From assembly GCA_002869565.1 (NCBI GenBank), contig PKUJ01000006.1:5270-69269 (forward strand): 64,000 nt of DNA. Reading direction: 5' to 3'. Origin of the DNA: Arcobacter sp. (lineage in GTDB: Bacteria; Campylobacterota; Campylobacteria; Campylobacterales; Arcobacteraceae). Both the position numbers and the translations under genes were made by a program. The notes beneath the pieces are model-generated. The model did not search any database and was not told the DNA's origin. It was given only the letters and a program-made list of their open reading frames with translations. Below, piece after piece: positions 12,578-34,798 of the stretch. Every line of letters begins with the position of its first letter. Within the stretch, counting starts at the first letter, position 1.

Positions 12578-12586
12578 ATTAGAAGT

Positions 12587-13321
12587 ATGAAAAATCAAAC
12601 AAAACTCTTATCTTTCCTTTTTTTTGTCATAATTTGGCAGGCTCTTTCTATATTTATAAATTCTGAGCTTTTCCCTTCAGTTATAAATATAATTATTAGT
12701 CTTGCAAAACATATAATTGATGGTGAACTTTTACCTCATTTATTAATTACATTATATAGGGTTTTTGTAGCATTTTTTATTACTATGTTTATAGGCCTTA
12801 TTTTTGGAATGATAATGGGATTAAGTAGAAGATTTAATGATATGTTTGATTTCTTACTTATAGTGGGGCTGAATATTCCAGCTCTTGTTACCATAATTAT
12901 TTGTTATATTTGGTTTGGACTTACAGATCTATCTGCAATTTTAGCTGTAATAATAAATAAAATACCAGTTGTTATTGTAAATATACGTGAAGGTGCAAGA
13001 GCTATTGAAAAGAAATATATAGATTTAGCAAAAGTATATAAAGTTCCAAAAGAGGATCTTATCAAAAAAATATATTTGCCTCAAATGTATCCATATATAT
13101 TAGCCACAACTAGGCTTGTATTATCTTTGATTTGGAAAATTGTTTTAGTAGTGGAGCTTCTAGGGCGTAGTGATGGAGTAGGTTTTCAAATATCAGTTTA
13201 CTTCCAATTTTTTGATATTACATCTATATTTGCATATTCACTTGCTTTTATTTTAGTTATTTTGTTAATAGAAAGTATTTTATTAAGACCTTTTGAAAAA
13301 AGGATTGAAAGATGGAAATAA
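12587..13321 (+). CDS. ABC transporter permease (NitT/TauT-like)
   Basis: 244 residues with about six membrane helices. The EAA-loop region REGARAIEKKYIDLAKVY ... IYLPQMYPYI matches BPD_transp_1 permeases of the SsuC/TauC kind. It sits between the binding protein and the ATPase, whose likely start codon is one base after its stop (TAAGATG). It forms the inner-membrane channel of the importer. Confidence 0.85.
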   Translation: MKNQTKLLSFLFFVIIWQALSIFINSELFPSVINIIISLAKHIIDGELLPHLLITLYRVFVAFFITMFIGLIFGMIMGLSRRFNDMFDFLLIVGLNIPALVTIIICYIWFGLTDLSAILAVIINKIPVVIVNIREGARAIEKKYIDLAKVYKVPKEDLIKKIYLPQMYPYILATTRLVLSLIWKIVLVVELLGRSDGVGFQISVYFQFFDITSIFAYSLAFILVILLIESILLRPFEKRIERWK

Positions 13322-13322
13322 G

Positions 13323-14021
13323 ATGTTAAATATAAATATAAAAAAGAAATTTTTTAAAGAAGAACTTATTTTAAAAGATATTGATATTACTTTAAAAAAA
13401 GGCGAATTCTTATCAATAATTGGACCATCAGGATGTGGGAAAACCACTCTTTTAAATACTATAGCATCATTAGATGATGATTATTTAGGAGCTTTAGAAG
13501 GTGATTTCTCTAATATCTCTTTTATGTTTCAAGACCATAGATTAATTCCATGGTTAAGTGTAAAAGAAAATCTATTATTAGTTTCAAAAACAAAAGATAT
13601 GAAAGAGATTGAAAATCTAATGAAATTAATAGGTTTAGAAAATATTTTAGAAGAGTTCCCTAATAAATTATCAGGTGGAATGGCAAGAAGAGTATCTTTA
13701 ATACGAGCTTTTATAAATAGACCAAAACTAATACTTCTTGATGAACCTTTCATCTCTTTAGATTATCCAACTTCTATGAGTCTACAAAAAGATTTTCTCT
13801 CTTTTTGTAGAGAGTTTAATCCCACAGTTATTTTGGTAACTCATGATATAAGTGAAGCAATATATTTATCAAATAGAATATTGTTTTTTAGTAAAAAACC
13901 GACGTCTGAGATATATAAATATGAGAATATAAATAGACAAGAGTTTAATCAAAAAAAGATTGATGATATTAAAAATCAAATTTTAGAAGAATATCCAAAA
14001 ATATTAGAAGGAATAGTGTGA
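13323..14021 (+). CDS. ABC transporter ATP-binding protein (NitT/TauT-like)
   Basis: About 232 residues from ATG 13323. The track starts at 13293 inside the permease gene, but MLNINIKKKF directly after the permease stop with GGAAATAAG upstream is the more natural start. Walker A GPSGCGKTT, signature LSGGMARR, Walker B LILLDEPF and switch His in THD are all intact. It energises the importer. Its stop TGA overlaps the ATG of the DUF411 gene. Confidence 0.85.
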   Translation: MLNINIKKKFFKEELILKDIDITLKKGEFLSIIGPSGCGKTTLLNTIASLDDDYLGALEGDFSNISFMFQDHRLIPWLSVKENLLLVSKTKDMKEIENLMKLIGLENILEEFPNKLSGGMARRVSLIRAFINRPKLILLDEPFISLDYPTSMSLQKDFLSFCREFNPTVILVTHDISEAIYLSNRILFFSKKPTSEIYKYENINRQEFNQKKIDDIKNQILEEYPKILEGIV

Positions 14022-14416
14022 TGAAATATGTTATATTGATAGCTTTGCTATCAACATTGTATGCAAAGAATGAGAAAATACAAATTTTCCAACCTCTATC
14101 AAGTTCTTGTCCTCAGTCTTGGCTTGATGATATAAAAAAAGAGGTAGATGAGGTAAATATTGTATCTTTAATGAGTGTAAAAAATTTAAAAAGAGAAATT
14201 GGTGTACCAAAAGAGATTCAATCTTGTAATACTTCTATTATCGATGATTATATTTTTGAAGGGAATGTTCCCGTAAAAGCTATTAATGATTTTTTTAAAA
14301 ATATTCCCAAAAAAGCAATTGGATTATCTCTCCCTGCTTATGAAAATAAAAAAGTTGTTAAAAAAGTTTTTGTGATTTTTGAAGATAAAAGTTTTAAAGA
14401 GTTTGGAAAATACTAA
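14021..14416 (+). CDS. DUF411-like periplasmic protein
   Basis: 131 residues from ATG 14021, which overlaps the ATPase stop as ATGA-type TGATG; a GTG one codon earlier is possible. Signal peptide MKYVILIALLSTLYA. LKREIGVPKEIQSCNTSIIDDY, IFEGNVP and AIGLSLPAY follow the DUF411 pattern (…LGVP…SCHTA…GYVxEGHVP…). The usual first CxxC is replaced by SSSCPQSW, and the His of SCHT is Asn here, so metal binding may be changed. DUF411 proteins are linked to copper or other metal handling, so its place in this ABC operon hints at a metal or metal-chelate substrate. Confidence 0.7.
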   Translation: MKYVILIALLSTLYAKNEKIQIFQPLSSSCPQSWLDDIKKEVDEVNIVSLMSVKNLKREIGVPKEIQSCNTSIIDDYIFEGNVPVKAINDFFKNIPKKAIGLSLPAYENKKVVKKVFVIFEDKSFKEFGKY

Positions 14417-15931: not shown

Positions 15932-16393
15932 TTATTCTATGCTATCTATAATGAGAGTTTTTAAGGTTTCGTTAATTTCCTCTGCAATTTTATCACCAAA
16001 TTTGAATGTTTTATAATATTTAAATGAAATGAATGTTGTATTTTTATTTTGACTATAAATAGAAATTGCTAAAGGACAATAGTTTATATTGAGGAAATTT
16101 TCACTCACCATTTTAAATGTAAAACTACTTTTACAAATACCTATATTAATCCCTTTTTCTAAAGAAGTTTTTCTTTCTAATAGTTTTGCAACAGTATTTG
16201 TACTTTTGGCCATATCAAGTTCATATACAATTGTAAAACCATTAAAAGTTAGTTCATCTTTTAGATTTAATAAACTATTTTCAAAACTTGTATTACTAAC
16301 TTTTACTATAAAAAGATTTTTATTTCTTTCTATTTGATATTCCGCATTTGAAAATGAAAAAATTCCTAGAAATAAAAAAAATAGTTTTTTCAT
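15932..16393 (-). CDS. DUF302 domain protein, secreted
   Basis: 153 residues with a signal peptide (MKKLFFLFLGIFSFSNA). FENSLLNLKDELTFNGFTIVYELDM followed by INIGICKSSFTFKMV and YCPLAISIYSQ match DUF302, a small alpha/beta domain of unknown role that often appears beside sulfur, heme or PQQ periplasmic genes. Its ATG overlaps the stop of the binding-protein gene (16390) by four bases, so the two are co-transcribed from the operator at 17579. Confidence 0.8.
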   Translation of the reverse strand: MKKLFFLFLGIFSFSNAEYQIERNKNLFIVKVSNTSFENSLLNLKDELTFNGFTIVYELDMAKSTNTVAKLLERKTSLEKGINIGICKSSFTFKMVSENFLNINYCPLAISIYSQNKNTTFISFKYYKTFKFGDKIAEEINETLKTLIIDSIE

Positions 16394-17538
16394 TGTTTAC
16401 AGTTCATTTCAAATGGTGCAATACCTAAGGTATCTAAATCAGTAATTGGATGTAAAAAACCAACTTGAGGAGAAGTAGATATTAAAGCCCTTGGTTGTAC
16501 TAAAGATATAGGCATTCTAAGTTGTCCATTATATTCTCTAAAAGATAACTTTCTTCCCATGTAAGCTCCTAATTCAAACTCTTTTGAATGGATATAATCT
16601 AAATTTGTTTTTAAATTTGAACTTTGGGTACGGGTAATTGCATTTATAATAGTTCTAACTGCTAACCAATTTGAAAAATCTTTTTCTTGCATCCATCTTG
16701 AAGCAAATTTTTCAAATCTACTTTGCATTTGAGCTGCTCCCCATTGTTCAATTACTTTATGCCAAATAAGAGGTTTCAATCCTTGTGTCCCTGCGATTGG
16801 CCTTGGAAGCCAAGTATTAAAATACATAAACTCTCCAAAATCTCCATAATAATCACTAAGAAGTATTAAATCATAATCATCTGCTTGGGTAAATACTGGA
16901 AATTCTGAATTTGCTTTTCTTCTTATATCACTATTATTTTCCCAAGTTTTTTCTTTGACAATTTTTGCACCAAATTTTTTAATAGCTCTTTTTATATCTT
17001 GTGTTATTTGTTTGTCTTTTTCATTTTTACCATTTACTAAAAATATATCTTTAAAGTTTCTTTTTATCAAAAATTGAACTAATCCATCATAAAGCATAGC
17101 GTTACTTGCACTTGTATGAAGTAAGTTTTTTTGACAATAATTTTTTCTCAAATCCGTATTTTGGCTACTGGCATTTATTAGTAAAGCTTTTTTTGAAAGA
17201 GGGTGTTGTAAAATTTTTTTCAATAAATCATCTTCTACATTTAATATCACAAAGCTATTATTTTCAACTATAAAATCTTCGAAACTTTTTTTTAATTCAT
17301 CTTCATCATAAGAGATTTTAGTAATTAATTTAAAGTTTTGATTTAAAAATTTAGCACTTTTATTACTATCTTTTATGGCTATTTCTGCCCCTTGTAATCC
17401 TAAATCTTTAGGTTCTTCTATAACATTTGATAAGACTGGTGGTTTTTTGATTTTTTGCTCTAGGTATAAAATATTTACATTTAAAGTTTGAGCACTAATA
17501 GTGGAAATAAGTAGTATTAATAGTATTGAAAATCTCAT
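16390..17538 (-). CDS. Substrate-binding protein of the PQQ alcohol-dehydrogenase ABC system
   Basis: 382 residues. Signal peptide MRFSILLILLISTISA, then a branched-chain-amino-acid-type periplasmic binding fold. EPKDLGLQGAEIAIKDSNK and the closing PQVGFLHPITDLDTLGIAP are characteristic of the family named for the PQQ-dependent alcohol dehydrogenase system. It is the likely partner of the ATPase and permease at 22069-23577. In Pseudomonas putida the equivalent ABC system (PedA1A2BC) is needed for growth at low lanthanide concentration, so lanthanide-linked uptake is a reasonable inference here. Confidence 0.82.
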   Translation of the reverse strand: MRFSILLILLISTISAQTLNVNILYLEQKIKKPPVLSNVIEEPKDLGLQGAEIAIKDSNKSAKFLNQNFKLITKISYDEDELKKSFEDFIVENNSFVILNVEDDLLKKILQHPLSKKALLINASSQNTDLRKNYCQKNLLHTSASNAMLYDGLVQFLIKRNFKDIFLVNGKNEKDKQITQDIKRAIKKFGAKIVKEKTWENNSDIRRKANSEFPVFTQADDYDLILLSDYYGDFGEFMYFNTWLPRPIAGTQGLKPLIWHKVIEQWGAAQMQSRFEKFASRWMQEKDFSNWLAVRTIINAITRTQSSNLKTNLDYIHSKEFELGAYMGRKLSFREYNGQLRMPISLVQPRALISTSPQVGFLHPITDLDTLGIAPFEMNCKQ

Positions 17539-17671: not shown

Positions 17672-18646
17672 TTATTTAGCAGTTTTTGCTTCTTTAATCC
17701 AATCATCAACTTTTGCAGCATTTTTCTTTAACCACATTTGAGTATGTTTTTGAATATCTTTCTCTTTATTTTGGCCATTTGCCATAAGCATATTTTGTCC
17801 AGATACATCATTTACATCTAGTTTCATAATGTTAAATAATTTTGCGATATCTTTGTGTTTTTTAAGACCATTTGCATTAGCTGTAATTTTTTGTGAATTA
17901 ACAGCAAAACCGTAGTCAGCTCCATTTGAAAGTTTTGTAGAACTTTGGTTTGGATTTGCAGAGTGAGTTACTTGTAAAAATACTACATCTTTTCCAGGAA
18001 CTAATTTTCCACTTACCCAATATGGAGTCCATGTATAATATAAAATTGGTTTACCTGTTTTATAGTTTGCCATTGTATCAGCGATAAGTGCTGAATACTC
18101 ACCTTGATTATGCTCAATAGTATCTCTTAACTTAAATGCATCTAATTGATGTTCAATAACTTTTTCACATCCCCAACCAGCATTACATCCTGTTAAGTCA
18201 GCTTTCCCATCATTATCAATGTCAAATAGTTTTGCAATCTTTGGATCTTTTAAATCATTAATATACTTTATATTATACTTTTCAGCAGTTTTTTTATCTA
18301 TTAAGTAACCTTGGGCACAGCCTGAGATATATTCAGAAGATACTGAAAACTTATCTTCTCCTAATGCTTTAATTTTTCCTTCATGTAATGGATCCCAACT
18401 TGCTGCCATAAAATATACATCATCACTTTTTGCATTATTAGCAATTGTTTGATATGCAATATCATAACTTACATCATTTGTAATTTCAACTTCATGTCCC
18501 ATCTTTTTTAAGATTTCTGCAACAATATTCATTTGAAAACTTTCTTCAGCAATACTTGTTTTTACTGCTGTAACCTTTGCCCCAAATAGACTTGATGCAA
18601 CAACTAATGATGCTAAACCACTTATTAATATTTTTTTACTAATCAT
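17672..18646 (-). CDS. proX: Glycine betaine/proline-type substrate-binding protein
   Basis: 324 residues with a signal peptide ([23 protein letters not shown]). The OpuAC fold is visible: [19 protein letters not shown], then YIWTPYWV-type [13 protein letters not shown] and Trp residues that in ProX make the aromatic cage for quaternary amines. [10 protein letters not shown] is a typical ProX loop. It is the third gene of the proVWX operon, overlapping proW by four bases. Ligands are probably betaines or choline. It lies inside the PQQ island but lacks the shared operator. Confidence 0.85.
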
Positions 18647-19671
18647 TTTTTTCCTTTGCTTGTTAGTTTATATAAGAAACCAATTGGCCCTTTTTGGAAC
18701 CATCTAGTTTTATCATTTTTATCTTTTTGTCCCATTGATTGAGTTAATCTATCTAGAATTACAGCTAGTAATACAATTCCTAAACCACCAACTGCTGCAA
18801 GTCCAATATCTAATCTTCCTATTCCTCTTAGTACCATTTGTCCTAAACCGCCAACAGCAATCATAGAAGCAATAACTACCATAGAAAGTGCAAGCATAAG
18901 CGTTTGATTTACTCCTGCCATAATTGTAGGCATAGCAACTGGGATTTGAACTTTCCAAAGCATTTGTTTAGAACTTGCTCCAAAAGACCTTGAAGCTTCT
19001 ATTAAATCCTCTGGTACTTGTCTAATACCTAAGTTTGTAAGTCTAATAAGTGGCGGCAATGCAAAGATAATAGTTACAATAACACCAGGTACATTACCAA
19101 TACCAAATAACATTACAATAGGAATTAAGTAAACAAATGCGGGGGTTGTTTGCATTGCATCAAGAATTGGCCTTAATATTTTATCAACTGTATCACTTCT
19201 AGCACTCCAAATACCTAGAGGAAGTCCTATAATTATTGAGAATAACACAGCGGTGATAACTAAAGAAAGAGTAATCATAGACTCTTCCCATGCGCCAATA
19301 AATCCTATAATTAAGAATGAAATAAAAGTTCCAAGAGCGAGTTTTTTTGTTGAAAACTGTAAAGCCATTAAAACAAAAAATAGAATCAGCACGTACGGAT
19401 TTAAAAATAGTAAAAAACTTTCAATTGCTTTTAATACTATATCAATAGGAGCTTTGGCTGCTAAAAAAACCTCTCTAAAGTTTAATACTAACCAGTCAAT
19501 TCCTTGATTTGTCCAATCATCAAATGGAATAATTGCATCTTCAAATGGGTTTAAAATATCAAATTCTTTTACTTCTTCTATCGGTGCAGTAGCTGCTTCA
19601 TCTGTCCAATTAACTGATGATTCTTTATTTTCTTGTGATGTTGAAGCATTTCCCCATGGATCATTACTCAT
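18643..19671 (-). CDS. proW: Glycine betaine/proline ABC permease
   Basis: 342 residues. A polar N-terminal ~60 residues is followed by about six membrane helices. The permease loop [21 protein letters not shown] and [18 protein letters not shown] match ProW. The N-terminal extension and length are typical of ProW proteins. Its start overlaps the end of proV by eight bases, so translation is coupled. ORFs 18749-18958, 19253-19507 and 19617-19823 are shadows. Confidence 0.87.
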
Positions 19672-20878
19672 TGTCTACTCCTTCATCAAATACTTTTAAA
19701 AGTCTACTTTTTGATATAGTTCCTTTATACTTTCCCTCATCATCAACTACAGGAATTGGATATTTATACTCTGCAACTTCAGCTATAAAATCTGAAATTT
19801 GTCTATTTTCATTTATGGTTTGATTACACCAAATTGCATCATAAATTGTTCCTCCAGCTTTTTTCTGTTCTTTTAATGACTCTAAAGTTAGTATTCCAAG
19901 GTATTTTCCACTTTTTTCAACGAAATATGCATAATCTTCATCAAAATCAGCAATATATTGTAATGCAGAATTTACTCCTGTACTCTCTTTATTTATAATA
20001 GTAGGTTTAACTTTTTTTGCAATATGAGATGCTGATAATACAGAAGTTACATCAACTCCTTTAAAGAAAGATTTCACATAATCATTTGCTGGATTATTTA
20101 TAATTTCTTCAGGAGTTCCTAGTTGTACAATTTCTCCACCTTCCATAATTGCAATTCTATCACCAATTCTAATTGCTTCATCTAAATCATGTGAGATAAA
20201 TACAATGGTTCTTTTCTCTTTTTCTTGAAGTACTAGTAGTTCATCTTGCATTTCTGTACGAATTAATGGATCAAGTGCTGAAAAAGCTTCATCCATAAGC
20301 ATGATATCGGGGTCATTTGCTAAAGCACGTGCCAGTCCAACTCTTTGTTGCATACCACCACTCAGTTCATCAGGATAAGATTGGGCATGATGTTCTAGAC
20401 CAACTTGTTCTAGTGCTTTTTGTGCAGATTCATATCTTTTAGATTTTTGTACACCACTTAATTCTAAGCCAAATGATACATTATCTATAATATTCATGTG
20501 TGGCATTAAAGCAAAAGATTGAAATACCATGGAAATTTTTTTTCTTCTAATATCAATAAGTTCTTGGTCACTTAAATTAGTAACATCAATATCATCAATA
20601 AATATTTGTCCTGAAGTTGGTTCTATTAGTCTATTTAGAAGTCTTACAAGTGTGGATTTTCCAGAACCTGATAGTCCCATGATTACAAATATCTCTCCTT
20701 CATTGATTTCAAAACTTGCATCTTGTACACCAATAGTCATACCAGTAGATTTAAAAATATCTTCTTTACTTTGACCTTGACTTAACATTTTTAAAGCTTT
20801 TTTTGGTTCTTCACCAAATACTTTAAAAACATTTTTAACGATAAGTTTTTTATTTAAAATATCTATTTTTTCCTCCAA
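19664..20878 (-). CDS. proV: Glycine betaine/proline ABC ATPase with CBS domains
   Basis: 404 residues. Walker [10 protein letters not shown], signature LSGGMQQR, Walker [14 protein letters not shown], then a C-terminal CBS pair (~280-400) that in OpuA senses ionic strength. [18 protein letters not shown] at the N-terminus is ProV-typical. The start is unusual: the listed TTG is immediately followed by GGAGGAAAA, which looks like the Shine-Dalgarno itself, so the true start may be a non-AUG codon (ATA/ATT) a few codons in. A 14-bp perfect inverted repeat lies upstream at 20911-20942. Confidence 0.87.
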
Positions 20879-20942: not shown

Positions 20943-21038
20943 ATAATGTGTAATATTTACGTATTTTATGTTTATAAAGTACACATAATATGTAAAAAAT
21001 ATACAAAAAAAAGATTTAATTTTTAATAGTTGAGTTTT

Positions 21039-21070
21039 GCTAAATTCAAGCTATAAACTTCTATTACAAT
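21039..21070 (+). promoter_or_regulatory. PQQ-regulon operator and promoter of the beta-propeller/ABC operon
   Basis: GCTAAATTCAAGCTATA at 21039-21055, nine bases, TACAAT at 21065-21070, 30 bases before the ATG. Confidence 0.85.
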
Positions 21071-21099
21071 TTAGAAATTTTAAACTTAAGGGGAATGAT

Positions 21100-22059
21100 A
21101 TGAAAAAATTAATTTTATCTACGGTTTTAATAACAAGTTGTTTATTAGCTGACACTATTTATGTATCAAATGAGAAAGATAATACTATTTCGGTAATTGA
21201 TTCAAATAAAAATAAAGTAATAGATACTATAGAAGTTGGTCAAAGACCAAGAGGTATTCTTCTTAATAAGGATAATACGAAACTTTATATTTGTGCAAGT
21301 GATGATGACACTGTTCAAGTAATGGATATTAAAACAAAAAAAATCTTATATAATTTACCCTCTGGTGAAGACCCAGAACAATTTGCTTTACATCCTAATG
21401 GAAAAGAACTTTATATTTCAAATGAAGATGATGCAATTGTAACAGTTGTTGATACAGTAAATAAAACTGTAGTTGCTCAAATTGAAGTTGGTGTTGAGCC
21501 AGAAGGTATGGCAGTAAGCCCTGATGGAACAGTTGCTATAAATACAACAGAAACTTCAAATTTTCTACATTGGATTGATACTAAAACAAAAAAGATAATT
21601 CATAATACTTTAGTAGATCAAAGACCAAGACATATTGAGTTTACGAAAAGTGGTGATAAAGTATGGGCTTCAAGTGAAATTGGTGGTACTGTTATGGTTG
21701 TTGATTCTAAAACAAAAAAGAGTATTGCAAAAATTAATTTCAAAATTCCTGGAATATTTAAAGATTTAATTCAACCAGTTGGAATAAAACTCACAAGTGA
21801 TGGGAAATATGCTTTTGTAGCTTTAGGCCCTGCAAATCACGTAGCGGTAATAGATGCTAAAACATTTAAAGTAATAAAATATTTACTTGTAGGTAAAAGA
21901 GTTTGGCAGTTAGAATTTGCGCATAATGAAAAGAAACTTTATACAACAAATGGTGTTAGTGGGGATGTATCAATAATTGATGTTGATTCATTAAAAGTAG
22001 AAAAAAGTATCCAAGTTGGACGTTATCCTTGGGGACTCGCAGTTATCCCTAGTAAATAA
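21100..22059 (+). CDS. PQQ-associated YVTN-type beta-propeller protein
   Basis: 319 residues from ATG 21100; the track's start at 21037 precedes the -10 box and cannot be used. AAGGGGA is a good Shine-Dalgarno. Signal peptide MKKLILSTVLITSCLLA. Seven propeller blades are marked by recurring IYVSNEKDNTISVID, VEVGxxPxG and SPDG elements. The type is the beta-propeller protein associated with PQQ-dependent catabolism (PedA2 position). It is likely periplasmic and works with the ABC proteins encoded nine bases downstream. Confidence 0.85.
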   Translation: MKKLILSTVLITSCLLADTIYVSNEKDNTISVIDSNKNKVIDTIEVGQRPRGILLNKDNTKLYICASDDDTVQVMDIKTKKILYNLPSGEDPEQFALHPNGKELYISNEDDAIVTVVDTVNKTVVAQIEVGVEPEGMAVSPDGTVAINTTETSNFLHWIDTKTKKIIHNTLVDQRPRHIEFTKSGDKVWASSEIGGTVMVVDSKTKKSIAKINFKIPGIFKDLIQPVGIKLTSDGKYAFVALGPANHVAVIDAKTFKVIKYLLVGKRVWQLEFAHNEKKLYTTNGVSGDVSIIDVDSLKVEKSIQVGRYPWGLAVIPSK

Positions 22060-22068
22060 AGAGATAAT

Positions 22069-22791
22069 ATGAGTAAAAATATATTAAATTTTAAAAACAT
22101 AGATTTCTCATATGGAAAAAAAGAGGTATTAAAAAATATCTCTTTTTCTATTGAAGAGGGAAGTTTTTTTGTTTTATTAGGGCTTAATGGAGCTGGAAAA
22201 TCAACAATTTTTTCACTGATAACTAGATTATTGAATTTACAAAAAGGTGAGATTATTATTAATAGCCATTCTATAAAAGATTATTCAAAAGCTTTAAAAG
22301 ATATTGGAATTGTTTTCCAAGAACCAAGCTTGGATTTGGATTTAACGGTTAAACAAAATTTATATTTTTATGGTTCATTAAAAGGGCTATCATTTAAAGA
22401 GACTATGAAATCAATAGAATCAGAGATAACAAAACTAGAATTAGAAGATATTTTAAATACAGAAGTTAGAAATTTAAATGGTGGACATAGAAGAAGAGTT
22501 GAGATATTAAGAGCTTTAATAAATAAGCCCAAACTTTTATTACTTGATGAAGCTACTGTTGGCATTGATTTAAAAAGTAGATTTGATATTTTAGATTATG
22601 TTAGAGAATTGGTAAAAAGAGAGGATTTAAGTGTTTTATGGATTACTCATCTGTTTGATGAAGTAAACGAAGATGATGATATTGCATTTATAAAGTCTGG
22701 CGAAATTATAGAAAATGGAATAGTTAAAGAAGTGATGAGTAAATATGATAAAGAAAATTTAGTTGATACCTTCAACTATCTAGTTAGGTAG
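22069..22791 (+). CDS. ABC ATPase of the PQQ alcohol-dehydrogenase system
   Basis: 240 residues with Walker A GLNGAGKST, Q-loop FQEPSLDLDLT, an altered signature LNGGHRRRV, Walker B LLLLDEATVGID and switch His in THL. The LNGGHRRR form and ATVGID are characteristic of the ATPases linked to PQQ-dependent alcohol oxidation (PedA1/LutE kind). With the permease next to it and the binding protein at 16390 it forms a type-2 ABC system, for which lanthanide-dependent growth roles are described in Pseudomonas and methylotrophs. Confidence 0.85.
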   Translation: MSKNILNFKNIDFSYGKKEVLKNISFSIEEGSFFVLLGLNGAGKSTIFSLITRLLNLQKGEIIINSHSIKDYSKALKDIGIVFQEPSLDLDLTVKQNLYFYGSLKGLSFKETMKSIESEITKLELEDILNTEVRNLNGGHRRRVEILRALINKPKLLLLDEATVGIDLKSRFDILDYVRELVKREDLSVLWITHLFDEVNEDDDIAFIKSGEIIENGIVKEVMSKYDKENLVDTFNYLVR

Positions 22792-22815: not shown

Positions 22816-23577
22816 ATGAAAGGAATCATTTACAAAGAGTTAATAAGATTTGTAAAACAAAAAAGTAGATTTTTTTCTGCACTTGTGAGACCTCTATTAT
22901 GGCTATTTATATTTTCAGTTGGATTTAAAGCTGCTTTGGGATTAGCTATTATTCCTCCTTATGAAACATATATTACTTATGAAACCTATATTGTTCCGGG
23001 ACTTGTGGGAATGGTTTTACTATTTAATGGAATGCAAAGTTCTCTTACTATGATATTTGATAGGGAAATGGGAAGTATGAAAATTCTTTTAACCTCATAT
23101 ATTAATAGAAACTATTTACTCTTTTGTAAGATGTTTGCTACATCTATTGTATCTTCTATTCAAGCTTTAACTTTTTTGATTATTGCTAGACTTTATGGGG
23201 TAGATATTTCTTATTTGGCAATTTTTTTAACAATACCAGTGATAATGGTATCATCAATAATTTTAAACGCTTTTGCACTTTTTATATCATCTGTTATAAA
23301 ACAATTAGAAAACTTTGCAACGGTTATTAACTTTGTAATTTTCCCAATGTTTTTCTTAAGTTCAGCACTTTATCCTCTTTGGAAGATAAAAGATTCTTCA
23401 ATACTTTTATTTAATATTTCTTCATATAATCCATTTACATATATAGTAGAATCAATTAGGTTCTCTTTGTACCAAAAATTTGAATTTGAGTTGTTTTTTG
23501 TCTTGGCAGTTTCTTTCGTAGTTAGCCTATTTATGGCCTTTATAGGTTTTAAATCTAAAAAAGTAAACCGTAGCTAA
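22816..23577 (+). CDS. ABC-2 type permease of the PQQ alcohol-dehydrogenase system
   Basis: 253 residues with six membrane helices. VRPLLWLFIFSVGFK, then YETYIVPGLVGM and SYNPFTYIVESIR follow the ABC-2 membrane family, PedC/LutF subtype. It starts 24 bases after the ATPase. Its last codons overlap the operator for the dehydrogenase promoter (23573-23589), so the regulator site is partly coding. Confidence 0.85.
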   Translation: MKGIIYKELIRFVKQKSRFFSALVRPLLWLFIFSVGFKAALGLAIIPPYETYITYETYIVPGLVGMVLLFNGMQSSLTMIFDREMGSMKILLTSYINRNYLLFCKMFATSIVSSIQALTFLIIARLYGVDISYLAIFLTIPVIMVSSIILNAFALFISSVIKQLENFATVINFVIFPMFFLSSALYPLWKIKDSSILLFNISSYNPFTYIVESIRFSLYQKFEFELFFVLAVSFVVSLFMAFIGFKSKKVNRS

Positions 23578-23655: not shown

Positions 23656-25446
23656 ATGATTAGAAATAAACTACTAACTAGCGCAGTGGCCGTTACACTA
23701 TCTGCACTAATTAGCGGGTGCGTTACTTCAAACAGCACAGTAAATAATAGCCTGAATGAGGTTACAAAACCATCATATGCACCAGTTACTTACAAAGAAA
23801 TTCTAAATGATGAGAAATCTACGAATGATGTTCTTACCTATGGTATGGGACAAAAAGGTCAAAGATTTTCACCTTTAGATCAAGTTAATAAGGAAACTGT
23901 AAAAGATTTAGTTCCTGTATGGAATTTTTCTTTTGGTGGAGAGAAACAAAGAGGACAAGAGTCGCAACCAATTGTTAAAGATGGTGTTATGTATGTAACT
24001 GCATCTTATTCTAGAATTTTTGCAATTGAAATAGCTACAGGTGAAGAGTTATGGCAATATGATGCAAAACTTCCAGATGCAATTTTACCTTGTTGTGATG
24101 TTATCAATAGAGGTGCTGCAATATTTGATGATTTAATAATATTTGGAACATTAGACGCAAAACTTGTTGCTCTTAACAGAAAAACAGGAAAAGTTGTATG
24201 GAAAAAAAGAGTAGCTAAGTATAAAGATGGTTATTCAATAACTGCTGCACCTATGATTGTAAAAGGTATGGTAGTTACTGGTGTTGCTGGTGGTGAGTTT
24301 GGTATTGTTGGTAAAGTAGAAGCTAGAGATGCAAAAACTGGAGAAGTAATCTGGACTAGACCAACAGTTGAAGGTCATATGGGTTACTTAAATGGTAAAG
24401 AAAATGGTATTTCTGGTGGAGAAGCTGGTAAAACTTGGCCAGGTGATTTATGGAAATCTGGTGGAGCTGCAACTTGGCTTGGTGGAACTTATGACCCAGA
24501 AACAGATTTAATTTTTATGGGAACTGGAAATCCTGCTCCTTGGAATTCACATTTAAGACCAGGGGATAACTTATTCTCTTCTTCAAGATTAGCAATTAAT
24601 CCTGATACAGGGAAAATTGTATGGCATTTTCAAACAACTCCACATGATGGATGGGATTTTGATGGTGTAAATGAGTTAGTATCATTTGACTATGAAAAAG
24701 ATGGCAAAACTGTAAAAGCTGCAGGAACTGCTGATAGAAATGGTTTCTTTTATGTATTAAATAGAGAAAATGGTAAGTTTATTACAGCTAATCCTTTTGT
24801 TTCAAATATTACTTGGGCAACTGGGATTGATAAAAATGGTAGACCAATGTATACAGCAGATGGAAGACCAGGTAATCCAGGAACTGAAAGTAAAGGTAAA
24901 TCTGTATTTTCTGTACCTTCATTCTTAGGTAGAAAAAACTGGATGCCAATTTCGTATTCTAAAAATACAAAAATGTTCTATGTTCCTTCAAATGAGTGGG
25001 GAATGGATATTTGGAATCAACCAGTTTCATATAAAAAAGGTGCTGCATATTTAGGTGCTGGATTTACTATTAAACCAATTTTTGAAGATCATATTGGTTC
25101 TTTAAAAGCAATTGATCCATTAACTGGAAAAATCAAATGGAATTACAAAAACCCTGCACCATTATGGGCAGGAATTTTATCTACTGCTGGTGGACTTGTA
25201 TTTACAGGAACTCCTGAAGGTAAATTCTTAGCATTTGATGATGAGACTGGGAAAATCTTATATAAATTCAATGTAGGATCTGGAATTGTTTCTTCTCCAA
25301 TTACGTGGGAAGATAATGGTGAACAATATGTTGCTGTAGTATCTGGTTGGGGTGGAGCTGTTCCTTTATGGGGTGGTCAAGTTGCTAAAAAGATTAAAAA
25401 TATCAACCAAGGTGGAACGGTCCACGTATTTAAATTACATAGATAG
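23656..25446 (+). CDS. PQQ-dependent alcohol dehydrogenase, lipoprotein, lanthanide-type active site
   Basis: 596 residues. Lipobox ALISGC places a lipidated Cys at residue 22, so the enzyme should be membrane-anchored in the periplasm; most relatives are soluble. The eight-bladed quinoprotein fold is clear: the vicinal disulfide C146-C147 (LPCCDV), GTGNPAPWN for the metal-binding Asn, and [10 protein letters not shown]. In the last, D334 is the catalytic base and D336, two residues on, is the additional Asp that marks lanthanide-dependent enzymes (XoxF, PedH); calcium enzymes have Ala or Ser there. The substrate is probably a short alcohol. No own cytochrome gene follows, so PedF-type cytochrome is the likely acceptor. 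The pqq genes follow in the same operon. Confidence 0.9.
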
Positions 25447-25490: not shown

Positions 25491-25565
25491 ATGAAATGGG
25501 AAACACCAATGTTCGTTGATAATAGATTTGGATTTGAAGTTACAATGTATATTTGTCACGTATAA
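25491..25565 (+). CDS. pqqA: PQQ precursor peptide PqqA
   Basis: 24 residues, too short for the ORF track. MKWETPMFVDNRFGFEVTMY contains the E-x-x-x-Y pair (E16, Y20) that PqqE cross-links and that becomes PQQ. A strong AAAGGAGG Shine-Dalgarno precedes it by nine bases, 45 bases after the dehydrogenase stop. A terminator hairpin behind it would favour excess peptide message over the enzymes. Confidence 0.95.
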   Translation: MKWETPMFVDNRFGFEVTMYICHV

Positions 25566-25674: not shown

Positions 25675-26589
25675 ATGAAAATTCAAGTTTTAGGTTCAAG
25701 TGCTGGAGGAGGACTTCCTCAGTTTAACTGTAACTGTGATAATTGTCGAGGTTACAGAGAAGGTAAAAAAACTATTAAAAGAAGAACTCAGTCATCTATT
25801 ACAATAAGTGAAGATGGTGAAAATTGGGTTTTATTTAATACTTCACCTGATATTTTAGAACAAATTCATAATTCACCTTTTTTGCATCCAACAAAAAAAA
25901 GAGAAACAAAGATAAAAGCTATTGTTTTTATTGATGCTCAAATTGATCATACAACTGGTTTACTAATGTTAAGAGAAGGCTGCCCTCACGAAGTATATTG
26001 TACAAAAGAGGTAAATGAAGAACTTAATACCTCTTTCCCATTATTTAAAATGCTACAGCATTGGGATGGTGGTGGAACAAATTATCATGAGATAGTTCCA
26101 AATAATACAAAATTTGAAATTCCTATAATGCCAAATTATGAATTTTATGCACATCCACTTATTTCAAATGCTCCACCATATTCTAAATATAGAGACAAAC
26201 CTAGAGCTGGAGATAATATTGGTGTTGTTGTTGTAAATAAACAAACAGGAAAAAGACTTTTTTATCTTCCAGGACTTGGAGTTTTAGAAGAACATATTAT
26301 AAAAGAGATGGCAAAGGCTGATATTTTGTTATTAGAGGGAACTTTATGGACAAATGATGAGATGATTAAAGGGAATTTTTCTAAAAAACTTGGAACAGAA
26401 ATGGGACATGTTCCATTAAGTGGAGAAAATGGTCTAATAAAAGTTTTAGATAGTTTAGAAAAACCTAGAAAAATATTAATACATATCAATAATACAAATC
26501 CAATTTTAGATGAGAGTACTGATGAATATAAAGAGTTAATATCTCATGGGATTGAAGTATCTTATGATGGTATGAGTATAGAAATTTAA
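25675..26589 (+). CDS. pqqB: PQQ biosynthesis protein PqqB
   Basis: 304 residues, the usual length. [20 protein letters not shown] at the start, with its Cys zinc knuckle, and [16 protein letters not shown] are hallmark PqqB motifs. The metallo-beta-lactamase-like fold is used as an iron-dependent tyrosine hydroxylase acting on the cross-linked precursor fragment in the cytosol. Start ATG 25675 follows AAAGGATGG. It precedes pqqC by 22 bases. Confidence 0.95.
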
Positions 26590-26611: not shown

Positions 26612-27367
26612 ATGACTAAAAGAATGGATATATTACTGACAAAAGAAGAGTTTGAAGCAAAACTTAGAGGTATGGGAGAGATGTATCATATTCATCACCC
26701 TTTTCATGTAAGAATGTATGAAGGTACTTGCACTAAAGAAGAGATTCAAGGTTGGGTTGCAAATAGATTCTACTATCAAACTGCTATTCCTATTAAAGAT
26801 GCGGCAATTATGTCAAATAATCCACCACTTGAGGATAGAAGAAAATGGATAGATAGAATTATTGATCATGATAGTGTTGGTGGAGGAATTGAAGCTTGGT
26901 TGGAACTTGGTGAAGCTGTTGGACTTGATAAAGAAGATTTAATTTCACATAAATATGTTTTACCGGCAGTAAAATTTGCAGTTGATGCATATATAAATTT
27001 TGCTAAACAATCTCCTTGGAAAGAGTCAGCAATGTCATCTCTCACAGAGATGTTTGCACCTCAAATTCATCAACAAAGACTTGATACTTGGCCAAAAAAT
27101 TATCCATGGATTGAGCAAAATGGATTAAGATATTTTCAAAAAAGATTAAGTGAAGCAAGACGTGATGTACAACATGGTTTAGCTATGACATTAGAAGAGT
27201 TTGATACTATAGAGTTACAAAATAGAGCCTGTGAAATATTACAATTTAAATTAGATATTTTATGGACTATGTGTGATGCTTTATACTTAGCATACGAATT
27301 AAAAAGACCACCATACTTTAATATAAAGGATTGCAATGCAACTAGAAAAATCACTTGCAGTGAATGA
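26612..27367 (+). CDS. pqqC: Pyrroloquinoline-quinone synthase PqqC
   Basis: 251 residues. [14 protein letters not shown], then [18 protein letters not shown] and IDHDSV ... [14 protein letters not shown] are PqqC (TenA-like helical) motifs with the catalytic His and Tyr residues present. It carries out the last ring closure and oxidation with molecular oxygen. Its 3' end overlaps pqqD by 32 bases in another frame. AAGGGGAAG precedes the ATG. Confidence 0.95.
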
Positions 27368-27605
27368 ACATTTTCAATTGCAATTTGAAGAAGCACAAGA
27401 GTGTTTCGTATTATTATATCCTGAAGGTATGGTTCAATTAAACCAAAGTGCTGGCGAGATAATGAATCTTTGTGATGGGAAAAACTCTTGTTTAGATATT
27501 GCTAAATTATTAGAAGAAAAATTTAATATGCCTGATTTAAAAAAAGATGTTGAAGCATTTTTACTTGAAGCAATGGAAAGAAAGTGGGTGGTTTATGGAA
27601 ACTGA
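27336..27605 (+). CDS. pqqD: PQQ peptide chaperone PqqD
   Basis: 89 residues. [27 protein letters not shown] and [18 protein letters not shown] match the PqqD RiPP-recognition fold that presents PqqA to PqqE. It starts inside the end of pqqC, with AAAGGA just before it, and its last codons overlap the pqqE start, so the three are translated together. Confidence 0.93.
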
Positions 27606-28698
27606 AATTAAGCCTCCACTTTGGCTTCTTTTGGAACTAACTCATAAGTGTCCTTTAGAGTGTTCTTATTGTTATAATCAATTAGATTTTGCAGGAACTA
27701 AAGATGCAATGAGTAAAGATGATTGGTTTAAAGTTATGGAAGAAGCAAGGGCAATGGGAGCAGTGCAACTTGGTATTTCTGGTGGAGAGCCTTTATTAAA
27801 TAAAGATATTGTAGAAATTGTAAAAAAAGCTAGTGATTTAAAATTTTATACAAATTTAATTACATCTGGAGTTGGTGGAGAACCTGGTATTTTAAAAAAA
27901 TTAAAAGATGCAGGATTAAAGACAATTCAACTTGGTATTCAATCTCATGATGAAAATACAATGACTCTTATTACAAATAATAAAACTGCTTTTAGAGATA
28001 AAATTGCATTTGCTAAAGAGGTAAAAGAGTTAGGTATGCAACTTATTGTAAATACTTGTATTACTAGACAAAATATTCATCAAGTTGGTGAGATAATTGA
28101 ATTTGCAGATAGTTTAGATGCAAACTATTTAGAAGTAGCAAATATTCAATATTATGGATGGGCCTTAGAAAATATAAATGCCTTACTTCCAACCCAAGAA
28201 CAATTAGATGAAGCAAAAAGAGTAACAGATTATTATCGAGAGAAAAGAAAAGATATGAAAGTATTTTTTGTAGTTCCTGATTATTTTGCAACAAGACCAA
28301 AAGCTTGTATGAATGGTTGGGGAAGTACCTTTTTAACTATAAATCCTGATGGAGTAGCACTTCCATGTAATACTGCAAATACTTTACCTTTAGATTTTCC
28401 AAATGTTAAAGATTCTTCTATAAAAGAGATATGGTATGACTCACATGCCTTTAATTATTTTAGGGGTGATAAATGGATGAAGCCAACTTGTCGTACTTGT
28501 GATGAAAAAGAGAAAGATTTTGGTGGATGTAGATGCCAAGCATTTGCTTTGACAAAAGATATGCATGAAGCTGATCCTGTTTGTGATAAATCAAGTTATC
28601 ACAATGTAGTAATTAAAAAAGTTGAAACAGCTTTAAAATCTTCAAATGAACCTATTTATAGAAATAAACAAAATTCGCTTTTATTTATAAATAAATAG
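27595..28698 (+). CDS. pqqE: Radical SAM enzyme PqqE
   Basis: 367 residues from ATG 27595. The earlier ATG in the track (27547) lies in pqqD, and [16 protein letters not shown] is the family's real beginning. The radical-SAM cluster is CPLECSYC; the C-terminal SPASM Cys set (CMNGWGS, CNTAN, CRTCDEKEKDFGGCRCQ) is complete. It forms the Glu-Tyr carbon-carbon bond in PqqA with PqqD's help. It is the last pqq gene; a terminator follows at 28702. Confidence 0.95.
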   Translation: METEIKPPLWLLLELTHKCPLECSYCYNQLDFAGTKDAMSKDDWFKVMEEARAMGAVQLGISGGEPLLNKDIVEIVKKASDLKFYTNLITSGVGGEPGILKKLKDAGLKTIQLGIQSHDENTMTLITNNKTAFRDKIAFAKEVKELGMQLIVNTCITRQNIHQVGEIIEFADSLDANYLEVANIQYYGWALENINALLPTQEQLDEAKRVTDYYREKRKDMKVFFVVPDYFATRPKACMNGWGSTFLTINPDGVALPCNTANTLPLDFPNVKDSSIKEIWYDSHAFNYFRGDKWMKPTCRTCDEKEKDFGGCRCQAFALTKDMHEADPVCDKSSYHNVVIKKVETALKSSNEPIYRNKQNSLLFINK

Positions 28699-30505: not shown

Positions 30506-31165
30506 CTAATTTGGCCTTTCTACCATGTATCCAATTCCACGAATATTTATAATAAAGTCTTCTTTTAGTACTTTTTTTACTCGATTTACTTCCGCTCTTA
30601 TTGTAGCATTATCTATGTAGTCATCATTCCAAACATAATCTCTAAACATATCATAATTACAAACTAAACTTCTATTTGCTGCAAGTAAATCTATGATTTG
30701 GATTTGTCTTTTTGGTAGTATTTGAGGTTCATTGTTAAACAGTAAAATCATATTTTTAGAGTCATAACTATAAGATTTTGATAATCTTTTGTGTTCTTGA
30801 GGTACTTGTCTTGTTTGTAAAATTTTATTAATTCTTAGTGTTAACTCTTTTAAGTGAAAAGGCTTTTTCAAATAATCATGACAACCTATATCAAAAGCTC
30901 TAGTAATATCTTCTATATCAATTAGTGCTGAAATAAATATTGTAGGTACCATTCTTTTTTGTTTATGTAAATCTTCTAAAATAGATATACCATCTTGATC
31001 TGGTACATTTATATCAAATACTAAAAGATCAAATTGTTCATTTGCCAATTTTTCTACGCAGCCATTTCCATCCATTGTAGAAACTACTGCATGTCCTGTT
31101 GATTCAAGATATTGAGTTATTGCTTTATTTAACATAATATCATCTTCTAAAAGTAATATTTTCAT
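30506..31165 (-). CDS. OmpR-family response regulator, candidate PQQ-regulon activator
   Basis: 219 residues. The receiver has LLLEDD, phospho-acceptor D51 in LLVFDINVPDQDG and the conserved Lys in YLKKPFHLKEL. The C-terminal winged helix ends NATIRAEVNRVKKVL ... IINIRGIGYMVE. The ATG overlaps the kinase stop by four bases, so the two are a pair. OmpR/PhoB-type regulators bind direct repeats of about 11 bp just upstream of the -10 box. That is exactly the layout of the seven GCTATA operators in this island, which makes this protein the best candidate for the activator (inference). Confidence 0.88.
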   Translation of the reverse strand: MKILLLEDDIMLNKAITQYLESTGHAVVSTMDGNGCVEKLANEQFDLLVFDINVPDQDGISILEDLHKQKRMVPTIFISALIDIEDITRAFDIGCHDYLKKPFHLKELTLRINKILQTRQVPQEHKRLSKSYSYDSKNMILLFNNEPQILPKRQIQIIDLLAANRSLVCNYDMFRDYVWNDDYIDNATIRAEVNRVKKVLKEDFIINIRGIGYMVERPN

Positions 31166-33057
31166 TTACATCCTTTAAACGAATAAGAAAAACTTGTCTC
31201 TTCTAAATTAGATTTTACATCTATAAGAACATTTTCTTCTTCACAAATTCTTTTGACTAAATTTAATCCTAGTCCAAACCCATCTTTTGAATGTTCTTCT
31301 CTATAATATTCATCAAATATTTTTTCAGGGTTTTGTATTTTTCTAGAATGACTAGTAACTATAAATTTCACACACTCATTATTTTGAATAATATCAACTT
31401 TTATAGGATCTCCTTTAAAAGTATATTTTATAGCATTTGTAATTGAATTATCAATAATTCTTTGTAGTTTTGTTTCACTGAAATCTACTAAGATTTTTTT
31501 ACTATTGGTTTTAAATAAAAATTTTGAATTTGTCATAGTTATTGCTACACTCTCGAAAAAATCTACTCTATTTCTTACAAAATCTATCAAATCAATGGTG
31601 TAAACTTTATATTCAACTTGGTCTTTTTTTACTAAGTAACTCAAATCATCATAGATTGAGAAGATATTTTTAACCGCAACTTCAATATTTTCTAAATAAG
31701 TACTCTTTCCATATTCCATTTCATGTAAATCAATATTACTAACAATAACGGAAAGGGGAGTATTTGTTTCATGAACAGAGTGTCTTAAAAATAGTTTTTG
31801 GTTTTTTAAAAGGTGTTCAGAATAGGCTATTTGTTTTTCTAAAGCCTTTGCTTGTTCATTTTGATCTTTTGCACTTTGCTGAATTAGACTAGTCAAGGCT
31901 TGAATGCTTCTTGAATAGGCAAGATCTTGGCTACTTACCATATTATTTGATGGTGCCTGTTGTATATTTAAATCAGGGTTTTCTGATAAACCAACTACTG
32001 TAATTGTTTCATTTGTTAATTCATTTTTATTATCTGCATGAAAAAATTCTGCATAAGTAAAAAATCCAGAAGTTGTAGCAACTGATGCAAAAGGCTCAAT
32101 TTCAATTCTTGTTAAACTTTGCATATATCTACGTCGTGCCATACAAGAGTAAATAAAAAAGGTTTCAGCAGGTTTTGATTCAATATTTTCAAGATATTCA
32201 AAAGGAGTATTAATTATTCGTTCTGCATCAGCAAATCCAATTTTTACTTTATCTCCTTGATATAACCCTCCTGCACAACCTAAACTTCCATCTGGGTATT
32301 TAGTAACTGTTGCTCTTGCTATTGATATACCATTTCTTTCAACCATTAGTGGAAACTCTGTAAAAGTTGCTAAATTTCCACTACCTAAATATTTTTTATA
32401 AAAATCTATTGCTCTCATTCCTGAAATTTCATAGATTCTATTACCCTCTATTCTATCAATTGTATGTTCTATTCCTATTGGAGACCAACCATGTTTTATG
32501 TCATTTTGAACTTGAAGTATATCTGAGTTTAAGGATATAGCAACTGCACCATGATCGATAATTTCTGTTCCTGAAGAGATAAATGTTCTTAAAAATTTCC
32601 CATTATCTCCTGCCATTCCTCCTGCAACCATAATTGAACTATTAAAAGAGTTTATTCCTGCAAGATATTTTTCTCCATTAGTATATGTACTATCTGTGAA
32701 TGTTATAATTAATTTTGTATTTGGGGTAACTATATCTTGTGCTATTTCATAACCATTTTTAAAAGAATCTCCATGGTTTTTTATAGATGTTTTAACTGTT
32801 GTATTCTCAAAAGTAGATATAGCTATTATTGTTTTAAGTGTAGAAACTTTTGTATTTTTTATTTCACCATCAGTAGTGGTTCCTATACAAATAGCATGTG
32901 GTAAATTTCTAGATAAAGTATCAATGATAAATTGTAAAGTGCTTTCATCATTACCACAAAAAACTTGTATCAAAATATTTTTTTGTCTTTTAAAAAAAGC
33001 GTAATCAATTTCATCTTTAAATAGATTGTTTTGAAAAGTATAGTTGTATGTTCTCAT
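31162..33057 (-). CDS. FIST-domain sensor histidine kinase
   Basis: 631 residues with no membrane helix, so cytosolic. Residues ~1-200 are FIST_N (CIGTTTDGEI, VAGGMAGDN) and ~210-370 FIST_C (YEISGMRAIDFYKKYLG ... FIYSCMARRRY). A short coiled linker, the H-box VHETNTPLSV (H429) and an HATPase domain (N-box DNSITNAIKYT, G-box DGFGLGLNLVKRI) follow. FIST domains bind small ligands, probably amino-acid-like. FIST kinases near PQQ alcohol dehydrogenases are known in other bacteria, so the kinase may sense a substrate or product of alcohol oxidation. It is divergent from the aldehyde dehydrogenase gene. Confidence 0.88.
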   Translation of the reverse strand: MRTYNYTFQNNLFKDEIDYAFFKRQKNILIQVFCGNDESTLQFIIDTLSRNLPHAICIGTTTDGEIKNTKVSTLKTIIAISTFENTTVKTSIKNHGDSFKNGYEIAQDIVTPNTKLIITFTDSTYTNGEKYLAGINSFNSSIMVAGGMAGDNGKFLRTFISSGTEIIDHGAVAISLNSDILQVQNDIKHGWSPIGIEHTIDRIEGNRIYEISGMRAIDFYKKYLGSGNLATFTEFPLMVERNGISIARATVTKYPDGSLGCAGGLYQGDKVKIGFADAERIINTPFEYLENIESKPAETFFIYSCMARRRYMQSLTRIEIEPFASVATTSGFFTYAEFFHADNKNELTNETITVVGLSENPDLNIQQAPSNNMVSSQDLAYSRSIQALTSLIQQSAKDQNEQAKALEKQIAYSEHLLKNQKLFLRHSVHETNTPLSVIVSNIDLHEMEYGKSTYLENIEVAVKNIFSIYDDLSYLVKKDQVEYKVYTIDLIDFVRNRVDFFESVAITMTNSKFLFKTNSKKILVDFSETKLQRIIDNSITNAIKYTFKGDPIKVDIIQNNECVKFIVTSHSRKIQNPEKIFDEYYREEHSKDGFGLGLNLVKRICEEENVLIDVKSNLEETSFSYSFKGCK

Positions 33058-33225: not shown

Positions 33226-33301
33226 TTCATTACAGAAAAAATCTGATACAAAATATTTGTTCAGATTAATTCAACAAAAACTAATTATAAAAGGAAAAAA
33301 A

Positions 33302-34798
33302 ATGGCATACGCTAAACCAACTTTCAAACCTCAGTACGAAAACTTTATCGGTGGAGAATGGGTCGCTCCAACAAGTGGAGAATATTTTGATAATCTATCA
33401 CCAGTAGATGGTGAAATTTTAACAAGAATTCCAAGATCAAATGAAGCAGATGTTGATGCAGCAGTAGCAGCAGCAATGACAGCTTTTGAATCTTTCAAAC
33501 ATACTTCTATAATAGAAAGAAGTACTATGTTAAATAAAGTTGCAGATGCAATTGAAGCTAACTTAGAACAATTAGCAGTAGCTGAAACTTTAGATAATGG
33601 TAAAGCAGTAAGAGAAACTTTAGCTGCTGATATTCCTTTAGTTGTTGATCATTTTAGATATTTTGCTTCAGTTATTAGAGCTGAAACAGGTACAGTTGCT
33701 GATTTAGATGAAACTACTGTATCTCAAGAAGTTTACGAGCCATTAGGTGTTGTAGCTCAAATTATCCCTTGGAATTTCCCATTATTAATGGCTGCATGGA
33801 AAATAGCTCCTGCTTTAGCTGCTGGTAACTGTGTAGTTTTAAAACCAGCAAGTGCTACTCCAATGGCAATTTTAATTTTAATGGAAATCATCCAAGATGT
33901 TCTTCCAAAAGGTATTGTTAATATTATTAACGGTGCAGGTGGAAAAATTGGTAAACATTTATCAACTCATCCAGATGTTAAAAAAGTTGGATTTACAGGT
34001 GAAACTACAACTGGTCAGTTAATTATGCAATATGCAACTGAAAATATTATTCCTTCTACATTAGAACTTGGTGGAAAATCACCAAATATTTTCATGGAAT
34101 CAATCATGGATGCTGATGATGAGTTCTTTGATAAAGCAATTGAAGGTCTTGTACTATTTGCATTTAACTCAGGAGAAGTTTGTACTTGTCCATCAAGAGC
34201 ATTAATTCAAGAATCAATTTATGAGCCATTTATGGCAAGAGTTTTAGAGAGAGTTAAAGCTATTAAATTAGGAGATCCATTAGATCCAACTTGTATGATG
34301 GGAGCTCAATGTTCAACTTCTCAAAAAGAGAAAATTATGGAATACATCAAAATTGGTAAAGAAGAAGGTGCTGAGTGTTTAATTGGTGGAGATGAATACG
34401 TAAGTGAAACTCATCCAAATGGTAACTACATCCAACCAACACTATTTAAAGGTCACAACAAAATGAGAATCTTCCAAGAAGAAATTTTTGGACCAGTACT
34501 TGCTGTTACAACTTTTAAAGATGAAGAAGAAGCTTTAGCAATCGCTAACGATACAATTTATGGATTAGGTTCAGGTATTTGGTCAAGAGATGCACACCAA
34601 TTACATAAATTTGCAAGAGGAATTGAAGCAGGTAGAGTATGGGTTAACTGTTACCATATGTACCCATCTCATGCATCATTCGGTGGATATAAAAAATCAG
34701 GTATCGGTAGAGAAACTCACATGATGATGCTAAACTCTTATAGACATACAAAAAATATCTTAACTTCTTACTCTAAAAATGCACTAGGTTTTTACTAG
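33302..34798 (+). CDS. NAD-dependent aldehyde dehydrogenase (ExaC/AldB-like)
   Basis: 498 residues from ATG 33302 with AAAGGAAAAA upstream; the track's start at 33257 would lie too close to the promoter. Catalytic features are intact: LELGGKSPN with the general base Glu, nucleophile Cys in NSGEVCTCPSR, and the NAD-binding IPWNFPLLMAAWK and GFTGET. Cytosolic oxidation of the aldehyde produced by the periplasmic PQQ enzyme is the natural role, supported by the shared operator. A DUF779 gene, the usual companion of this subfamily, follows. Confidence 0.9.
   Translation: MAYAKPTFKPQYENFIGGEWVAPTSGEYFDNLSPVDGEILTRIPRSNEADVDAAVAAAMTAFESFKHTSIIERSTMLNKVADAIEANLEQLAVAETLDNGKAVRETLAADIPLVVDHFRYFASVIRAETGTVADLDETTVSQEVYEPLGVVAQIIPWNFPLLMAAWKIAPALAAGNCVVLKPASATPMAILILMEIIQDVLPKGIVNIINGAGGKIGKHLSTHPDVKKVGFTGETTTGQLIMQYATENIIPSTLELGGKSPNIFMESIMDADDEFFDKAIEGLVLFAFNSGEVCTCPSRALIQESIYEPFMARVLERVKAIKLGDPLDPTCMMGAQCSTSQKEKIMEYIKIGKEEGAECLIGGDEYVSETHPNGNYIQPTLFKGHNKMRIFQEEIFGPVLAVTTFKDEEEALAIANDTIYGLGSGIWSRDAHQLHKFARGIEAGRVWVNCYHMYPSHASFGGYKKSGIGRETHMMMLNSYRHTKNILTSYSKNALGFY

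Follow-up and report, generated by a model that had tools for sequence, protein, structure and literature searches.

PQQ-dependent alcohol dehydrogenases fall into types that can be told apart by the residue two positions after the catalytic aspartate (+2): among the characterized enzymes, Asp marks the lanthanide type, whereas Ser or Thr marks the calcium ethanol dehydrogenases (PMC5487730, PMC11845868). The metal of PedH loaded with Pr3+ is held by Glu199, Asn281, Asp323, and Asp325, and Ca2+ can reportedly occupy the enzyme when lanthanide is absent (PMC11845868), so that lanthanide dependence may not be absolute. P. aeruginosa is without a rare-earth dehydrogenase (PMC12997753). PQQ itself is bound by PqqT with a Kd of 50 nM (PMC12124388), and structure 9B1V represents PqqT with PQQ and Gd3+ (PMC12828617). 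In a full-text search of the open-licence literature, neither PedH nor any other lanthanide enzyme was found to be reported for Arcobacter or other Campylobacterota, an earlier listing in a survey being possible.

Here, we analyzed a 64-kb stretch of DNA (the window) from a genome that is, among named relatives, closest to Arcobacter sp. SZUA-449. By its genus and family codes, the genome groups with the Arcobacteraceae, in agreement with the original prediction of a Campylobacterota-like host. We read its PQQ dehydrogenase, with a probability of roughly 0.85, as a PedH-type lanthanide-dependent alcohol dehydrogenase of the Arcobacteraceae, being exported, lipid-tethered, and working together with a ped/pqq cluster.

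The PedH-type dehydrogenase and its predicted metal site

The sole PQQ dehydrogenase of this genome and its relevant parts are located as follows:

23656-25446, plus strand: pedH, PedH-type PQQ alcohol dehydrogenase, ATG start, 596 aa (assigned by TIGR03075, PedH structure 6zcw, tree, and model)
23656-23721, plus strand: lipoprotein signal peptide, 22 aa, predicted lipidation site Cys22 (based on pattern and conservation)
24655-24663, plus strand: codons of D334-F335-D336, with the predicted catalytic base (D334) and the additional Asp ligand of the metal (D336)

The whole protein matched TIGR03075 (methanol/ethanol PQQ dehydrogenases) with 793 bits at a cut-off of 480, and comparison with solved relatives gave 913 bits for P. 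putida PedH, 678 for ExaA, and ~363 for XoxF. Its initial annotation as a PQQ dehydrogenase is thus no chance motif match, and the protein is not a XoxF. The lanthanide methanol dehydrogenases of the latter kind share the extra Asp and the fold with it; however, they are methanol-specialized, form a separate clade, and are only ~36% identical. Aligned with the crystallized PedH of P. putida KT2440 (6ZCW, 6ZCV), 380 of 552 residues are identical (69%, to 6zcw), a 12-letter motif is common to both, and E214, N292, D334, and D336 coincide with PedH E199, N281, D323, and D325, so that four of four metal ligands are conserved. The motif HDGWDFDG begins at residue 330, which places its Asp residues at 334 and 336, exactly where the original prediction had seen them within DGWDFDG; vicinal cysteines are present as C146-C147.

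The +2 residue, Asp336, differs from the Ser/Thr of the PedE/ExaA type. Throughout the gathered loci, many of which are near-copies, all 113 PedH-like sequences have Asp at this position and all 35 PedE-like ones have Ser, and the active-site residues are invariant across the PedH clade. As judged from these alignments, the window protein is an ortholog of P. putida PedH and a new member of this known family, and D336 is an inherited trait of the entire clade rather than a peculiarity of this protein. A predicted structure (mean pLDDT 78.9, pTM 0.84) retrieved PedH first in a fold search, followed by ExaA and XoxF; the model contains neither metal nor PQQ, and its metal loop (331-340) is of low confidence (pLDDT ~57). 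The enzyme is predicted to be lanthanide-dependent, a reading already proposed from the second Asp and now supported by the orthology to PedH, by the PedH structure with this Asp on the metal, and by neighboring genes of the PedH system.

Predicted lipid anchoring

Pattern-based prediction identified the lipobox LISGC ending in Cys22, confirming the lipobox ALISGC named at the outset. Cys22 with a preceding lipobox recurs in 12 of the 27 Campylobacterota PedH rows of our tree, in several lineages and down to ~70% identity, while none of the 78 PedH loci outside the phylum carries it. Following Cys22, a linker of ~20 residues rich in Ser, Thr, and Asn leads to the conserved domain, which starts at residue 44. 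In respect to these features, the window PedH is predicted to be lipid-anchored on Cys22, with the anchor varying within the family. Close relatives at 85% identity are without the lipobox, and the A. caeni group and Poseidonibacter have SASA or SAQA instead of the Cys. Since this distribution requires at least four changes on the tree, anchoring appears to have been gained or lost repeatedly.

A soluble periplasmic PedH, with a type I signal peptide that resembles a lipobox by chance, is the strongest of the rival explanations, although we regard it as unlikely. To our knowledge, all XoxF, PedH, and ExaF enzymes studied so far are soluble, and the SASA/SAQA sequences of the relatives point in the same direction. 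Recurrence of the Cys22 lipobox in 12 rows of several lineages, its confinement to this phylum, and the linker up to residue 44 argue against it. The occurrence of lipid-anchored as well as soluble forms within one family would make the value of anchoring testable.

Phylogenetic placement

The tree was calculated from 60 sequences with the signal region and one long-branch outgroup row (L107) left out; a further row (L103) was left out of the alignment. All 27 Campylobacterota PedH rows form a single clade (support 100/99), and the gammaproteobacterial PedH clade is its sister (99/98 for the union). The calcium-type enzymes of the Arcobacteraceae constitute their own clade (100/100) among PedE, and the branch joining all PedH rows is weak (52/70). 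A tree of this kind with PedH, PedE, and XoxF relatives had been proposed as a check, and in it the window protein is found among the PedH rows, apart from PedE/ExaA. A single Campylobacterota clade having gammaproteobacterial PedH as its sister suggests that pedH entered the phylum once, probably through a transfer in which Gammaproteobacteria took part, with the direction being inferred.

This placement bears on the possibility that the window enzyme is a calcium-dependent PedE/ExaA-type ethanol dehydrogenase with an incidental +2 Asp, making the marker misleading. Such a reading draws on the fact that the marker was derived by correlation among a small number of characterized enzymes and that PedH can take up Ca2+. 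PedE/ExaA enzymes share fold and subfamily with the Arcobacteraceae members (~52-58% identity); however, the true PedE-type genes of the family fall into the separate clade with Ser at +2, while the window protein belongs to the PedH clade. Together with the gene content of the PedE-only genomes described below, from which the PedA1 that accompanies PedH is absent, this leaves the calcium reading little chance.

Gene content of the ped cluster

Based on profile matches and gene order, pedH is part of a cluster of ~25 kb, and the whole ped system is contained within the window. Its members outside of PQQ supply are:

8509-9432, minus strand: quinoprotein relay system zinc metallohydrolase (TIGR04558, 370.9 bits, cut-off 300)
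9435-10175, minus strand: quinoprotein-associated SoxYZ-like carrier (TIGR04557, 155 bits, cut-off 140)
10187-11056, minus strand: pedG, MoxJ/PedG-like periplasmic protein (weak TIGR03871 plus SBP_bac_3; adjoins pedF)
11059-11475, minus strand: pedF, cytochrome c550, putative electron acceptor (TIGR04494, 201.9 bits, cut-off 122)
16390-17538, minus strand: pedA1, periplasmic binding protein of the putative lanthanide importer (TIGR03863, 417.8 bits, cut-off 413.6)
21037-22059, plus strand: pedA2, beta-propeller protein (TIGR03866, 502.8 bits)
22069-22791, plus strand: pedB, ATPase of the PedA1A2BC importer (TIGR03864 as best family, 284.6 bits, slightly below the cut-off of 302; adjoins pedC)
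22816-23577, plus strand: pedC, permease of the PedA1A2BC importer (TIGR03861, 332.8 bits, cut-off 241)
30506-33057, minus strand: response regulator and FIST-domain sensor kinase (Pfam FIST; neighbors conserved in relatives)
33257-34798, plus strand: ExaC-like aldehyde dehydrogenase (NF050026, 832 bits, below the cut-off of 900)

All examined genes of the cluster are open, and the ped/pqq gene order recurs in relatives down to ~70% PedH identity. PedF, PedG, the SoxYZ-like protein, and PedA1A2BC are partners in common with the PedH system of P. putida KT2440. In contrast to the latter, the window enzyme has a predicted lipid anchor and a genome without a PedE partner, pqqABCDE follows directly downstream, a PqqT-type importer belongs to the cluster, and a FIST-domain kinase is found nearby instead of PedS2/PedR2. 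Both in PedH and in PedE genomes, this kinase and its response regulator retain their place beside the pqq/ped genes; the pair may sense alcohol here instead of PedS2/PedR2 and is a possible regulator of the cluster.

Further observations concern genes of other kinds. A proVWX-like glycine betaine transporter (17672-20878) lies between pedA1 and pedA2; as it was not found at the matching site in three relatives (L015, L057, L151), the transporter seems to have been inserted into the ped cluster. At 59483-62617, a PLD-helicase-DUF3427 protein scores 735 bits against type IV methyl-directed restriction enzymes and is directly preceded by a HipA-like gene (57922-59076). Rfam and tRNA scans of the 64-kb window gave no matches.

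Synthesis and probable recapture of PQQ

Five PQQ synthesis genes are located downstream of pedH, and genes of a PqqT-type importer belong to the cluster as well:

11618-12577, plus strand: PqqT-like protein, putative PQQ-binding component of an ABC importer (profile match to PqqT 9b1u, 5e-90; model TM 0.92 to 9ooz)
12587-13321, plus strand: permease of the PqqT-type importer (BPD_transp_1; order conserved in relatives)
13293-14021, plus strand: ATPase of the PqqT-type importer (ABC_tran; order conserved in relatives)
25491-25565, plus strand: pqqA, 24-aa PQQ precursor peptide MKWETPMFVDNRFGFEVTMYICHV (TIGR02107, 39.4 bits, cut-off 20; frame checked)
25675-26589, plus strand: pqqB (TIGR02108, 376.5 bits)
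26612-27367, plus strand: pqqC (TIGR02111, 335.5 bits)
27336-27605, plus strand: pqqD (TIGR03859, 97.3 bits)
27547-28698, plus strand: pqqE (TIGR02109, 472 bits)

Successive reading frames overlap from pqqC through pqqD to pqqE, which suggests that their translation is coupled. Elsewhere in the family, a second, diverged pqqC (~59%) and a pqqE-like gene (66-68%) occur near the ped cluster of A. caeni and of an Aliarcobacter genome (L016 17864-21773; L018 8033-10782), and one more genome (G410) also has a second pqqC.

General libraries labeled the importer at 11618-14021 weakly as sulfonate- or NMT1-like, and an NMT1/SsuA-like second lanthanide importer was considered for it; this assignment was rejected, as the binding protein matches PqqT. 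Its profile retrieved PqqT structures with an E-value of 5e-90, the next match following at 6e-7, and its model (pLDDT 91) found PqqT with PQQ first, with a TM of 0.92 to 9OOZ and, along its length, an identity of 31%. Both the profile and the fold match to this PQQ binder indicate that 11618-14021 probably encodes a PQQ importer. Compared with PqqT of Methylorubrum extorquens (9B1U, 9B1V, 9OOZ), with which it shares the fold at 31% identity, the window protein is encoded near pedH along with its own permease and ATPase. A DUF411 protein follows these genes (11618-14416 together).

Several Gammaproteobacteria and Alphaproteobacteria likewise encode homologs at a distance of up to ~13 kb from pedH (G400, G465, G468, G402, G470, G469, G471, G477, G478, and G401). 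Considering genomes that had not been picked for this trait, 3 of 11 have a PqqT-type homolog within 13 kb of pedH (binomial p ~2e-5, for a 26-kb target in ~5 Mb).

Distribution within the Arcobacteraceae

Matches were obtained in 12 of 397 Campylobacterota genomes, two of them weak. Within the Arcobacteraceae, 31 of 104 genomes encode a PQQ dehydrogenase, 24 of the PedH type only, four of the PedE type only, and three of both. PedH-type genes are consequently found in 27 genomes, one of which (G413) was assigned by a fragment of 83% identity without the motif, and 24 of them, the window's included, have no calcium-type partner. Arcobacter caeni RW17-10 is a named strain of this group.

The gene pqqC is present in exactly the 31 PQQ-dehydrogenase genomes. 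Among the 27 PedH genomes, PedA1 is encoded by 23, the remainder being fragmented or incomplete assemblies, and the PqqT-type protein by 26; PedA1 is absent from the four PedE-only genomes, and the PqqT-type protein from the 77 other Arcobacteraceae, hence from every PedE-only genome. In these counts, each genome is taken as independent despite kinship, and the joint transfer of a single cluster would yield them too. The PedE-only clusters (L145-L148) have retained pqqBCDE and pedF and, for the most part, the SoxYZ-like genes, yet pedA1, pedA2, and the PqqT-type importer are missing, and pedG was not detected, which suggests a co-occurrence beyond mere linkage. Homologs of pedBC are kept in two of these four clusters, though PedA1 is absent, raising the question of the role of pedBC without a lanthanide-binding subunit.

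That the cluster was recently acquired and is unused and nonfunctional in its host, as its patchy presence in 31 of 104 family genomes and the gammaproteobacterial nearest kin outside the phylum (suggestive of transfer) might indicate, is highly improbable in view of open reading frames in the cluster genes examined, invariant active-site residues across the clade, a gene order conserved to ~70% PedH identity, and the strict association of pqqC with the PQQ-dehydrogenase genomes.

Proposed function

Our explanation as a PedH-type lanthanide-dependent enzyme is directly based on orthology, conserved metal ligands, gene content, and occurrence across genomes, from which we infer metal dependence, substrates, lipidation, membrane location, electron path, transport specificity, and all chemistry. 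The dehydrogenase would be exported and tethered to a membrane by a lipid on Cys22 via the linker of ~20 residues. A light lanthanide on E214, N292, D334, and D336 would polarize the PQQ quinone, with D334 acting as base on the alcohol and PQQ becoming reduced. Electrons would pass to the cytochrome PedF and further to the respiratory chain, and the aldehyde may be oxidized further either by PedH itself or by the cytoplasmic ExaC-like dehydrogenase. PedA1A2BC would import the lanthanide, PqqABCDE would synthesize PQQ, and the PqqT-type importer would recapture it. In a genome without a calcium-type PedE partner, this alcohol route should depend wholly on lanthanide.

With a confidence somewhat above even, we consider the locus to represent lanthanide-only, lipid-anchored alcohol oxidation in the Arcobacteraceae that unites lanthanide import as well as PQQ synthesis and recapture in one cluster, which would give Campylobacterota their first described rare-earth-dependent metabolism and lanthanide dehydrogenases their first lipoprotein form. 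If confirmed, such a lipid-anchored and lanthanide-only PedH would be a variant of note within its family. The co-occurrence of PedH, PedA1, and the PqqT-type protein, absent beside PedE alone, provides a genomic test for separating lanthanide-use genes from general PQQ-enzyme genes. If our reading is true, rare-earth enzymes extend to a phylum known mainly for sulfur oxidizers and animal- or water-associated bacteria, and lanthanide supply would be decisive for such Arcobacteraceae on alcohols. As most of the PedH-encoding Arcobacteraceae are without a calcium backup, they would then be simple models for the lanthanide-dependent growth of non-methylotrophs.
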